DNA of 44,322 bases from a virus. Position 1 is the first letter of the stretch. Each line of letters begins with the position of its first letter. The notes under the pieces are model-generated. The model was not told where the DNA came from. It worked only from the letters and a program-made list of their open reading frames with translations, and did no database searches. Both the position numbers and the translations under genes were made by a program. The stretch lies in IMG/VR virus record IMGVR_UViG_3300042465_005715, positions 1 to 44,322 of that record; one strand, given 5' to 3'. Of this stretch, positions 3,839-38,064 are shown in pieces.

Positions 3839-3996
3839 AAGTAAAAGTATTCACTAGAAGTATTGAATCTTGTATGCAAGACACACCCGATAAACCTTTA
3901 ATGAAAAAGTTTTACAAAGATAAAACATTGCATATAACTGAAGGTTTTACAAAAACAGATTTACAAAAAAACTATTTCTACGACTTAAGATGTTAA
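3832..3996 (+). CDS. hypothetical protein, 54 aa
   Basis: Small basic protein (MLKVKVFTRSIESCMQDTPD..., ending YFYDLRC). An in-frame ATG exists 36 bases upstream at 3796, giving 66 residues. I prefer 3832 because it overlaps the end of the bridging micro-ORF in the way seen through this operon and avoids placing the start inside that micro-ORF. Unknown function. Confidence 0.6.
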   Translation: MLKVKVFTRSIESCMQDTPDKPLMKKFYKDKTLHITEGFTKTDLQKNYFYDLRC

Positions 3997-34119: not shown

Positions 34120-36306
34120 TTAAACAAAAATAGGCTTTACATACAATTTAACGCCTTTTTTTGCTCCACCTCCAATAAGTTTGTGCAATTTATAAGGTAT
34201 TTTATGTTTGTCGAAAATTTCCTTAATATCGTATTTTGTAGGTTTATTTAATAGAACACTACAAAGATATTCTAAAATTTCTCCTTGATTGACTATACAT
34301 TTTTCAGGGAAAGTTTCACTATATTCAAAACTATAATGTTTAAAAAACATTTCTTCAATAGGTCTTACCATTTCATTTTCTAAAGTTTGTTCTTTTAGGT
34401 ATTCAATATCTTTATCAGTACGAACTGACCAATCAAAACCTTTTTTTAACAAATTATAAGCTGAAGCCCAAAGTTGAGTTTTATCAATTGTAATCATAGT
34501 ATTGTAATCAATTGCATCAACATTTATTGCTAAAATACGCCTGTTACCTGTAACGTCTTTTAAAATATCTTTTTCGTTAGTAGTTCCGGCTAATATTGCA
34601 CGTCTTTTAAATGATTTTGAATTTTTGGTGTATGCTTGTCTGCAATCAATAAAGTTTTTATCTGAAAGTGCTTTATAATCTTTTGAGTCCTTAAAAGCTT
34701 TACCACCAAATTCATCATCTAAAATAATTAACTTTTTGCTCATTAAAATTAAACTATCTTTATCAGATCCATCAATTCTACTTTCTGCATAGTATTCTTT
34801 TAATTCATTAGGCATTAAATTACGAATAAATGAAGTTTTACCAATACCTTGTTTATCACCACTTAAAACAAGTGTCAAAGGACATACTATTGGGTCATTT
34901 TCGTTAGCAATCCAATTATGTACAGCCCCAACAATCCATTTCTTAAAAGCCCATTTATTATAATCAGATTTTGGTAGTAAACAATCTGAATACCTATCAA
35001 TTATTGTATCGTCAATTGAATTATTATTTAAGAAAAAATCTTTAATTGGGTCAATTACTGGAATAGCTGAACTATTTAAAATTGAACGAATATCGCTAAT
35101 TTTAATTTTTTCATTTATCACCCTATGTGCTTCTAGTAAAATATCATTTTCGTGTTTATCCTCAACTTTTTGACCTTTCAATAAAACATCATGAGTTAAG
35201 GCATTAAATTTTGGGTCGTATGCTTGTAAAATAAATTCTTTTAATTCGTCAAGTTGTGTTTTTGATTCATTAACTCCATCACTATAATCAAAGTTTGATG
35301 TTATTAATTCATTTATAAGCGTTTCTTGTTCGCTTGTTAAATCAATATCATGTACTGTTTTAAGATGTTTTCTTTGTTCCTCTAAATTTGCTTTTCCTTG
35401 AGTTTTTGCAATTTTAACTGAAGAAATAATTTGTTGAGTTTCTTGACTATAAAGTTCTATACCAGCTTCTTTACAATAATAATAAAATGTATTAATTCTT
35501 ATACCTGAATTGCCACTATTACAAAAATTATTATAATCTTTTGATGCTCTACTATGTTCATATTTAGAACCGTATTGACAAACATTATGGAAAATATCCT
35601 CACCACTACGACCAAACTTTTCAGCAATTGCAAAGCCAATTCTAATATATCTAAAATAATCTTCTTGACATAAATCAATATGCCTGTGCCTTATTTGTTG
35701 TAAAATATCGTTAAAATCAGATTCTACATAAATATATTCTTTTATTTTAATTTCTTTTTTAGGCTTTGCCTTAGCTACAAATCTACTAGCTTTTTCATTT
35801 GTATATATTTGTGGGTCATAAGAAACATACCTTAAACGATTTTGATTTTTGCAACTTGCATCAATTACAATATCATAATTTGAATAATAATGTTGTGCAA
35901 GTCCTTCAAAAGATTCAATAAACTTTGAAGGGTCTATTTTTACAAAGATAACAACGCCATCACCACCAAAACTACGATGCAATATTGAACTATATTTATC
36001 ATTTTTAAGCCTTTCAAGTAAAATATTATCAATATCACAATCAATATCAATTAAGATATAACCATTCATTGACAAAATATTTGATGCTTCTTTTTTACCA
36101 GCATTCATAACTGCTGAACCTGTTATACAAGGTGCTTGTACTTTTTTTGCTTTGTAACCTGCAATATCTCCGTTTTGCTTAAAAACTCTAGCATCAATAA
36201 CTAAATCTTGCCAAGTTCCACGTCTTATATCTGAAACATAATCTGAAACTAAAATATGTTCAGGTGTAATACTTTTAACCGAACTATATAAACTAACTTT
36301 CTCCAT
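34120..36306 (-). CDS. primase-helicase, BT4734-like/VirE (VapE) type
   Basis: 728 residues. The N-terminal domain (about 1-190) matches BT4734-like/VirE_N primase-polymerase-like regions: ILIDIDCDIDNILLERL, SILHRSFGGDGVVIFVKIDP, ASCKNQNRLRYVSYDP. A middle PriCT-like part with CQEDYFRYIRIGFAIAEKFG and ASKDYNNFCNSGNSG follows. The C-terminal VapE P-loop part has Walker A SGDKQGIGKTSF (about 480-490), Walker B KKLIILDDEFGG (about 527-535), then AGTTNEKDILKDVTGNRR with an arginine finger. It likely primes and unwinds phage DNA. It overlaps the helicase gene by 14 bases. Confidence 0.88.
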   Translation of the reverse strand: MEKVSLYSSVKSITPEHILVSDYVSDIRRGTWQDLVIDARVFKQNGDIAGYKAKKVQAPCITGSAVMNAGKKEASNILSMNGYILIDIDCDIDNILLERLKNDKYSSILHRSFGGDGVVIFVKIDPSKFIESFEGLAQHYYSNYDIVIDASCKNQNRLRYVSYDPQIYTNEKASRFVAKAKPKKEIKIKEYIYVESDFNDILQQIRHRHIDLCQEDYFRYIRIGFAIAEKFGRSGEDIFHNVCQYGSKYEHSRASKDYNNFCNSGNSGIRINTFYYYCKEAGIELYSQETQQIISSVKIAKTQGKANLEEQRKHLKTVHDIDLTSEQETLINELITSNFDYSDGVNESKTQLDELKEFILQAYDPKFNALTHDVLLKGQKVEDKHENDILLEAHRVINEKIKISDIRSILNSSAIPVIDPIKDFFLNNNSIDDTIIDRYSDCLLPKSDYNKWAFKKWIVGAVHNWIANENDPIVCPLTLVLSGDKQGIGKTSFIRNLMPNELKEYYAESRIDGSDKDSLILMSKKLIILDDEFGGKAFKDSKDYKALSDKNFIDCRQAYTKNSKSFKRRAILAGTTNEKDILKDVTGNRRILAINVDAIDYNTMITIDKTQLWASAYNLLKKGFDWSVRTDKDIEYLKEQTLENEMVRPIEEMFFKHYSFEYSETFPEKCIVNQGEILEYLCSVLLNKPTKYDIKEIFDKHKIPYKLHKLIGGGAKKGVKLYVKPIFV

Positions 36307-37903
36307 AATATTTTTCTAATTTTTGATTAACTTTTGACTTTATTTGTGCAATAGTTCTATTACTATTTGCATTTAATTCTTTATAAAATTTATGATAACA
36401 ACCATTAATAAGTTGTGTTATCCTTTTGCCATTATTAGCTTTATACAATTGATAACTTACACTATGACAAATAAAAAGTCGTACAATTTGGTCAATTAAA
36501 ATGTTAATTGCAAAATGTAAATCTCCATTATTTTTTTTAGTGTAATTTATTATTTTTTCAGCATTAGGAATTGGTACATTTGCCACAATCTTAACAACTT
36601 CGTCTGACTCAGTTTTTTCTTTTTTAGGCTTTTCAGGTTCTACAAAACCACATTCAGGACATTCCAATTCTTTTGCATCATATAAAACTCCACAAGCTTT
36701 GCATTCTTTTATATTTATTGCGTCGTCTTTTTTCCGTTTTGGCTTTTTAAGTCCATGATAAAATATTTTATTCCAATCTCTCTCAGCCGACCAGCTTCTA
36801 TGCCTTTCAATATTACCACCACCATCAATACAAATAAAACTATCTTTGTATATTTTATCTGTAATTCTTGCACCACGACCTACAATTTGCAAAAATAAAG
36901 ATAGTGAAGTAGTTGCTCTATTTATTATAATTGCTTCAACATCGGTAACATCAAAACCTGTTGTGAATACTCCAACATTTAATAAAATAGCATCACGTTC
37001 ATTTTTAAACCATTTTACAACTTCGTGCCTACTTAAATCACTTTCGTTTATAGAATCAAACATTTTTACATTTAATCCTTCATTTAAAAATGATTCATAA
37101 AGCTTTAAATTGTTTTCACAACTTGAATTAAATACCATTGTTTTTTTTCCTAAACAATACTTTTTGTAATTCAATAAAACATTAAATAAAGCTTCAGGCT
37201 TATTGTATTCGCTATTTTGTGAAGCAGTAGAATATTCGCCTGTATTATCTGTTTTTAAATTTTTAACATTAATATATTGTTCTACAAAATCAATATTTTG
37301 CACTAACTTTTCATCTTGTATTAATTCTGAAATTGAACGACCAACTACAATAGTGTCATAAAATTCAGACATTGTAACATCTCTATTCCATTCTTCAGCT
37401 TCTTCATTATGACAATCAAAAACTTCATCATCAATAGTATTACAAACTTTACATTTAAAATATTTATGCCTTTTTAATAGTACTGGTGTAGCAGTTAATC
37501 CTAATATTTTACAATCATATTGATTAATAATTTTGTTAAAATCCATCCTATGGGCTTCGTCTGCAATTATTAAATCAGCTTCAATGAACTGTTTTTGTAG
37601 TCTATTATATAAAGTATCAACCATTGCAACATAAATATTTGCTTTTGGTATTGTTTTTATTTTTGCAGTTATTCCAAATGCTTTTATTCCAAAATTTGCA
37701 AAAGTATTTATAGTTTGTTCAACTAATTCTGAACGGTGTACTAAAACAATAATAGTACCTTGAAATTGCTTTACAAATTCACTCATTACAACCGTTTTTC
37801 CACCTCCTGTACTAAGTTGGTATAATACTTTTCTATACTCTAAAAAAGCGTTTTTAATTTCATCAATAGACTTCTTTTGATGCTCATATAATTTAATTTC
37901 CAT
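36293..37903 (-). CDS. superfamily 2 DEAD/DEAH-box helicase (UvsW/RadD-like)
   Basis: 536 residues. Motif I is QLSTGGGKTVVM (29-40), motif II ADEAHRMDF (about 113-121), motif III LGLTATP (about 133), and the C-terminal helicase domain has VGVFTTGFDVTDVEAIIINR and QIVGRGARI (motif VI). Two cysteine groups, CKVCNTIDDEVFDCH near 150 and CKACGVLYDAKELECPEC near 398, look like zinc ribbons. Such enzymes remodel branched DNA in phage replication and recombination. First gene of an operon behind a perfect promoter and a structured leader of about 97 bases. Confidence 0.9.
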   Translation of the reverse strand: MEIKLYEHQKKSIDEIKNAFLEYRKVLYQLSTGGGKTVVMSEFVKQFQGTIIVLVHRSELVEQTINTFANFGIKAFGITAKIKTIPKANIYVAMVDTLYNRLQKQFIEADLIIADEAHRMDFNKIINQYDCKILGLTATPVLLKRHKYFKCKVCNTIDDEVFDCHNEEAEEWNRDVTMSEFYDTIVVGRSISELIQDEKLVQNIDFVEQYINVKNLKTDNTGEYSTASQNSEYNKPEALFNVLLNYKKYCLGKKTMVFNSSCENNLKLYESFLNEGLNVKMFDSINESDLSRHEVVKWFKNERDAILLNVGVFTTGFDVTDVEAIIINRATTSLSLFLQIVGRGARITDKIYKDSFICIDGGGNIERHRSWSAERDWNKIFYHGLKKPKRKKDDAINIKECKACGVLYDAKELECPECGFVEPEKPKKEKTESDEVVKIVANVPIPNAEKIINYTKKNNGDLHFAINILIDQIVRLFICHSVSYQLYKANNGKRITQLINGCYHKFYKELNANSNRTIAQIKSKVNQKLEKYYGES

Positions 37904-37914
37904 ATAAAATAAGA

Positions 37915-37999
37915 AAACCCGAAAAAAGGAGGTGGAAGACTCCTAATTACGGGTTTCATGGTTATAATAACCAGTTTCTTTAATATTGGCTTCCACTCC
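37915..37999 (-). ncRNA. structured 5' leader with pseudoknot-like pairing
   Basis: On the minus strand, from the predicted transcription start, three pairings are visible. P1: 37999-37990 with 37938-37928 (GGAGTGGAAG / CTTCCACCTCC, 10 bp, one bulge). P2 inside it: 37972-37968 with 37964-37960 (GGTTA/TAACC). P3: 37956-37950 inside the P1 loop with 37921-37915 beyond P1 (AAACCCG / CGGGTTT, 7 bp), which makes a pseudoknot. An alternative hairpin, AGGAG/CTCCT (37944-37940 with 37931-37927) followed by TTTTTT, competes with P1 and looks like an attenuator. No known riboswitch family was recognised. Confidence 0.6.
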
Positions 38000-38006
38000 A
38001 ACACTG

Positions 38007-38037
38007 CAAATATACTATTTTATTATTACTTTACAAA
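38007..38037 (-). promoter_or_regulatory. perfect Bacteroidota-type promoter of the helicase operon
   Basis: Minus strand TTTG (38037-38034), exactly 19 bases, TATATTTG (38014-38007). The expected start, about 6-8 bases downstream, falls at 38001-37999, directly at the first base of the P1 stem of the leader RNA. Confidence 0.85.
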
Positions 38038-38040
38038 AAT

Positions 38041-38064
38041 AAAGCCTCAAATTAATGAGGCTTT
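38041..38064 (-). terminator. rho-independent terminator at the end of the methyltransferase gene
   Basis: Perfect 9-bp stem 38041-38049 with 38056-38064 (AAAGCCTCA / TGAGGCTTT), 6-base loop, then on the minus strand ATTTTTG. The methyltransferase stop (38049-38047) is inside the stem. It separates the modification genes from the helicase promoter, whose -33 box follows at once. Confidence 0.8.

Follow-up and report, generated by a model that had tools for sequence, protein, structure and literature searches.

A family of kissing-loop leader RNAs, putative transcription attenuators, ahead of replication and endonuclease operons of Flavobacterium phages

To our knowledge, transcription control in phages of Bacteroidota is largely unexplored, and the leader RNA described here is best introduced next to elements known from elsewhere. 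The purine riboswitch fold consists of two hairpins connected through loop-loop pairing; the leaders differ from it in lacking a three-way junction and a conserved ligand-binding core, and in carrying 6–10 bp of Watson–Crick kissing of variable sequence. In the ColE1 RNAI/RNAII system with Rop, fully complementary loops of 7–8 nt form a kissing complex of about 7 bp, which is recognised by shape rather than by sequence. That contact, however, pairs two RNAs, whereas kissing in the leaders would take place in cis within one RNA. With trp-type leaders and riboswitch expression platforms the leaders share a stem followed by a U-tract, placed after the promoter and before the first gene, but in contrast to intrinsic-terminator attenuators they have neither a leader peptide nor a conserved antiterminator helix, and it is the loop-loop contact that is conserved. 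The closest known element by position and size is the putRNA of phage HK022, a two-hairpin leader of about 70 nt by an early promoter, which acts on transcription, makes sequence-specific contact with the beta' zinc-binding domain of RNA polymerase and is present in only two copies in HK022 (PMC9378689). It is like the leaders in position, size and its two hairpins, but has neither a kissing loop nor a U-tract/terminator of its own. Among the families of Rfam 15, known riboswitches included, none matched above the gathering threshold, in agreement with the initial annotation, which had recognised no known riboswitch; sub-threshold scans gave only weak matches, and no published description of such leaders was found in open-access full texts. 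The kissing leader appears to be an RNA control device not described before, and we call these elements putative attenuator leader RNAs with a new architecture.

The window, i.e. the whole 44,322-nt stretch analysed, carries its leader at the head of an operon in which a helicase gene is followed by VapE/primase. The parts, in order of transcription and with the evidence for each in brackets, are:

38041–38064, minus strand: hairpin like an intrinsic terminator, belonging to the upstream gene and directly ahead of the promoter (terminator scan)
38007–38014, minus strand: -7 promoter box TATATTTG of Bacteroidota type (sequence; TTTG 19 nt upstream)
37982–38005, minus strand: HP1, first hairpin, AGTGTTGG-AGTGGAAG-CCAATATT (MFE fold and compensatory changes)
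37990–37996, minus strand: kissing strand 1, GTGGAAG, in the HP1 loop (pairs with 37938–37932; double changes in relatives)
37959–37973, minus strand: P2, optional small hairpin TGGTTA-TTA-TAACCA, A-rich linker (MFE fold)
37950–37957, minus strand: 5' strand of P3, GAAACCCG (covariation)
37927–37944, minus strand: HP4, second hairpin, AGGAG-TCTTCCAC-CTCCT (MFE fold and compensatory changes)
37932–37938, minus strand: kissing strand 2, CTTCCAC, in the HP4 loop (evidence as for kissing strand 1)
37914–37921, minus strand: 3' strand of P3, CGGGTTTT (covariation)
37904–37913, minus strand: U-rich tract CTTATTTTAT behind P3, resembling that of a terminator (U-tract seen in 71 of 73 leaders)
36293–37903, minus strand: superfamily II DEAD/ResIII helicase, first gene of the operon (Pfam ResIII 4.5e-24, Helicase_C 8.6e-12)

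The MFE fold (-29.6 kcal/mol, z = -3.7, with none of 200 shuffles equally stable) comprises three hairpins, HP1 (38005–37982), P2 (37973–37959) and HP4 (37944–37927), and the enclosing helix P3 (37957–37950 with 37921–37914). HP1 and HP4 each have an 8-nt loop, and these loops hold GTGGAAG and CTTCCAC, respectively, which match perfectly and form a predicted 7-bp kissing interaction. For the full architecture the window reaches a score of 68, where the maximum in ten whole-window shuffles was 52. HP1, with its core written TTGG-AGTGGAAG-CCAA, begins at the predicted transcription start, and the AGGAG and CTCCT arms of HP4 lie at 37944–37940 and 37931–37927 of the minus strand. P3, formed by AAACCCG (37956–37950) and CGGGTTT (37921–37915), encloses HP4 and is followed by the U-tract and then by the helicase ATG (37903), with 103 nt of the minus strand between this codon and the box (38014–38007). 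The whole element thus spans about 38005–37904, slightly more than the 37915–37999 first given. The hairpin at 38041–38064 is strong and scores on both strands; among all leaders, terminator-like hairpins in the 75 nt ahead of the promoter box occur in a minority only (26%, or 17% when weighted by cluster, against 8% in shuffles), and a systematic upstream terminator was rejected.

The initial annotation had connected these parts differently. The promoter TTTG-N19-TATATTTG, the small inner hairpin TGGTTA/TAACCA (37973–37959) and the AAACCCG/CGGGTTT pairing are seen directly in the sequence, the last with compensatory changes in relatives. From its 10-bp stem P1, the pairing of GTGGAAG (37996–37990) with CTTCCAC (37938–37932) is real, but only these 7 of the 10 pairs are conserved, and they are loop-loop pairs; the outer pairs GGA/TCC are unconserved and would destroy HP1 and HP4. 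Since the complementary strands sit in the loops of HP1 and HP4, and since the stems of both hairpins covary, we read P1 as the kissing-loop contact and its strands as the loops of two hairpins. The H-type pseudoknot of P1 and P3 is given up, because the flanking bases make two covarying hairpins and P3 encloses the second of them. Likewise, AGGAG/CTCCT is not a competing hairpin but HP4 itself, and the T6 behind it, proposed as the U-run of an attenuator, lies in a stretch (J3') which is not U-rich among relatives; the terminator-like part is P3 with 37913–37904.

Relatives were reached by several routes. A protein search with the helicase led to two close IMG/VR contigs in which the leader architecture is kept and the letters are changed, a DNA pattern scan to a third close relative with its leader before a different gene, and in the Flavobacterium phages mumin/snusmum the design recurs with a third loop sequence. 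All loci were scanned with a structural descriptor made up of promoter box, HP1, kissing, HP4 and P3, which found about 38 distinct leaders in 372 kb at a score of at least 52, compared with 1 in 984 kb of dinucleotide shuffles. Further pattern scans brought the total to 73 distinct leaders of kissing design with a following ORF, in 36 sequence clusters, carried by IMG/VR contigs and the cultured Flavobacterium phages mumin (2 copies), lillamy (1) and 11b (1). The consensus of the promoter box over the 73 leaders is TATATTTG(C/T)A, TAnnTTTG itself having been demanded by the search, and P2 is carried by only some members. In 20 whole or nearly whole IMG/VR contigs (610 kb) we counted 35 leaders, 1–4 per contig, against 3 in 1.22 Mb of shuffles at equal threshold; the contigs were chosen for carrying the element or its helicase, so that the count per contig is descriptive. 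The kissing sequences differ among copies within one phage. The descriptor found no leader in five other Bacteroidota phages (Cellulophaga phi12:1, phi46:1, phi3ST:2 (first 50 kb); Nonlabens P12024S; Riemerella PT03) and no second copy was found in the window, and a helicase-based scan of bacterial genome contigs gave a single distant Eubacterium locus.

Compensatory changes were found in all four helices, i.e. the kissing helix, HP1, HP4 and P3. GTGGAAG/CTTCCAC of the window is replaced by GTCGAAG/CTTCGAC in relatives, a double change from G–C to C–G. Across the 12 sequences of alignment A7, 94.4% of cells are paired, against 73.5% in shuffles, with double changes in 14 pairs; in its kissing helix all cells (100%) are paired and 11 of them show double changes. 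Alignment A3 (23 sequences) is 100% paired with 44 double-change cells, in A5 (the mumin/lillamy group) AA/TT of the kissing helix changes to GG/CC, and in A4, which joins the window to its three closest relatives, HP1 has 2 double changes, the kissing helix 1, P3 2 and HP4 1. Slid structures scored far lower in all four alignments.

It should be noted that A7 and A3 include leaders first found via descriptor or loop patterns, and independent weight is therefore carried by two further tests. In the first, 30 helicase loci were picked by protein similarity only and the 160 nt before the gene were scored at a threshold of at least 54: the structure was present in 19 of the 30 upstream regions and in 0.05% of shuffles of the same sequences, and four further loci (L019, L021, L037 and L045) have it one gene upstream. 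For the second, a covariance model was built from the 12 other leaders of A7, with HP1, HP4 and P3 but without kissing pairs and with the window excluded. It matched the window at E = 7e-7, exactly at 37906–38014, and gave 29 further matches in leader-bearing phages with E up to 0.8. All 30 matches, about 20 of them not training leaders, have complementary loops (6–10 bp), compared with 9% of shuffled matches, and the single match in a control phage (E = 0.81) has loops without complementarity. Two matches, L131 and L126, are absent from the descriptor list. At the level of sequence comparison, an RNA family of kissing-loop leaders is thus well supported, and with covariation in every helix, no Rfam match and a U-tract the general proposal of an undescribed structured phage leader, starting at the promoter and with an attenuator flavour, is supported. 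In L023 (2390–2499) the kissing strands are swapped, with CTTCCAC in HP1 and GTGGAAG in HP4, as expected if complementarity alone matters.

Downstream of P3, the 73 leaders resemble intrinsic terminators. T reaches 84–88% at positions +2 to +5, U makes up 73% of the first 10 nt, and 71 of 73 leaders have at least 5 U within 8 nt, a few members such as L036 being poor in U; 16-nt stretches before other mumin genes have 49% A and 32% U. Where 18–30 nt separate P3 from the ATG, U amounts to 75% beside P3 and to 39% in the A-rich stretch before the ATG. Since U stays beside P3 when the spacing widens, the U-tract follows P3 and not the ATG, as in an intrinsic terminator. This bears on a reading without termination, in which the folded 5' end stabilises the mRNA by blocking 5'-end-dependent decay, or P3 and the U-tract serve as a ribosome standby site, Bacteroidota ribosomes rarely relying on Shine–Dalgarno pairing. 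HP1 starts no more than about 5 nt from the promoter box, so that hardly any free 5' end remains, and the element lies near the ATG. Both would suit this reading, but we consider it unlikely: a protective hairpin needs neither kissing partner nor P3 nor U-tract, and a U-tract anchored to P3 is disfavoured as a ribosome site. The kissing strand ends 14–27 nt before the end of P3 and, judged from the general footprint of RNA polymerase, should clear the enzyme before the U-tract is synthesised. In L014 (419–533, minus strand) and L037 (1781–1900), P3 and HP4 run together as a single plain terminator hairpin, and the loop of this hairpin kisses HP1.

How the kissing contact relates to P3 can be approached from the linker and the junction. 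In 30 of 33 clusters the linker (54% A, mostly 16–25 nt) has the length to bridge an extended HP1-kiss-HP4-P3 rod, which allows kissing and P3 to exist side by side. Where P3 meets HP4, 17.6 of 36 weighted clusters have as internal loop a tandem G–A or a bulged-G (AGUA/GAA, in either strand order), both of which we take to be standard non-canonical modules, while 4.9 ± 1.6 clusters are expected; because of this excess, we regard the P3-J-HP4 region as a built structure. Kissing and P3 energies show a weak negative correlation (rho -0.43, p 0.014), which points to cooperation but is thin evidence. From the coexistence geometry, the structured junction and this weak compensation, we incline to the view that kissing belongs to the terminating structure. 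A conserved, mutually exclusive antiterminator helix was not found, the 5' strand of P3 pairing in the nascent RNA to 0.369, against 0.370 with shuffled linkers; such a helix is not essential for attenuators under protein or tertiary-structure control. A compact tertiary fold of two hairpins, similar in size and placed just after the promoter of several operons per phage, would also be compatible with processive antitermination, for which HK022 putRNA sets the precedent (PMC9378689), with the leader binding RNA polymerase so that later terminators of the operon are ignored. We regard this as improbable, since put has no terminator-like U-tract and needs specific bases, whereas loops and stems vary here and pairing is kept.

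The leaders follow a TAnnTTTG box, and the next ORF begins mostly 9–30 nt, nearly always 9–50 nt, behind them. The genes encode the helicase, NUMOD4-HNH, HNH and GIY-YIG endonucleases, DUF7833 and DUF6291 proteins, and others, without a common pathway, which makes generic operon control likelier than metabolite sensing. The analysis gave no evidence for the sensing of a ligand or protein considered in the initial annotation; unrelated downstream genes and differing loop sequences favour a generic transcription-control element of phages over a metabolite riboswitch, and a riboswitch for one pathway was rejected because the downstream genes differ. A metabolite-sensing riboswitch on a kissing-loop fold, for which the resemblance of the loop-loop architecture to purine-type folds could be cited, is barely credible, as there is neither an invariant unpaired core nor an Rfam riboswitch match. 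The nearly constant spacing bears on another reading, in which a complete promoter-to-terminator unit of about 100 nt is a stand-alone gene for a trans-acting small RNA or decoy, the downstream gene being served by leakage or another promoter. This we hold to be very improbable, since gene identity varies and the distance to the ORF hardly does, and since the loops are buried in cis pairing and differ among copies of one phage. Free-standing homing-type endonuclease genes (GIY-YIG, HNH, NUMOD4-HNH) often stand directly after the leader (L019 1902–2501, L021 1825–2229, L004 178–657, L070, L072, L079, L080, L099, L107 and L147); in L019 and L021 the endonuclease gene separates the leader from the helicase, as though insertions preferred the junction of leader and gene.

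With architecture, covariation, placement and U-tract read from the sequences, we propose, at a probability of roughly 0.6, that the element attenuates transcription in cis, with a loop-loop tertiary structure that modulates a promoter-proximal terminator of replication and endonuclease operons. Transcription would begin at HP1; HP4 would then form and its loop pair with that of HP1 into the kissing complex; P3 would close around HP4 and be followed by the U-tract, completing the anatomy of an intrinsic terminator shortly before the first ORF. Kissing complex and P3 would make up one tertiary structure that sets how often polymerase stops ahead of the operon, and its completion would set read-through into the genes for replication, helicase and endonucleases; control would probably be exerted by a phage or host factor, or by the state of the polymerase. 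We infer that termination occurs and is regulated, and that kissing promotes it instead of hindering it. If kissing belongs to the terminating structure, read-through would appear to need a factor or condition; a comparison of gene content singled out no trans-acting factor shared by carriers. We give even odds to the wider view of an undescribed class of phage RNA, a kissing-loop-controlled terminator heading several operons per phage as a portable module, recognised by shape and not by sequence, possibly by a phage factor that times expression in Flavobacterium phages.

The presence of leaders in cultured mumin, lillamy and 11b makes both the steering of a terminator by a loop-loop contact and the timing of replication genes in these phages testable. 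As pairing is kept while sequence drifts, the family is a clean set of natural examples for RNA tertiary design, and the leader may be usable as an orthogonal part for expression control. The leader of L008 (10330–10433, minus strand) is nearly identical to that of L001/L002 but heads a different operon with no helicase adjoining, which suggests that the leader moves as a module. In the phage G025 (L147), two leaders lie 1.4 kb apart (2451–2551 and 3882–3979) with kissing sequences one base apart (GTGGTCG and GTAGTCG), a natural near-crosstalk pair.
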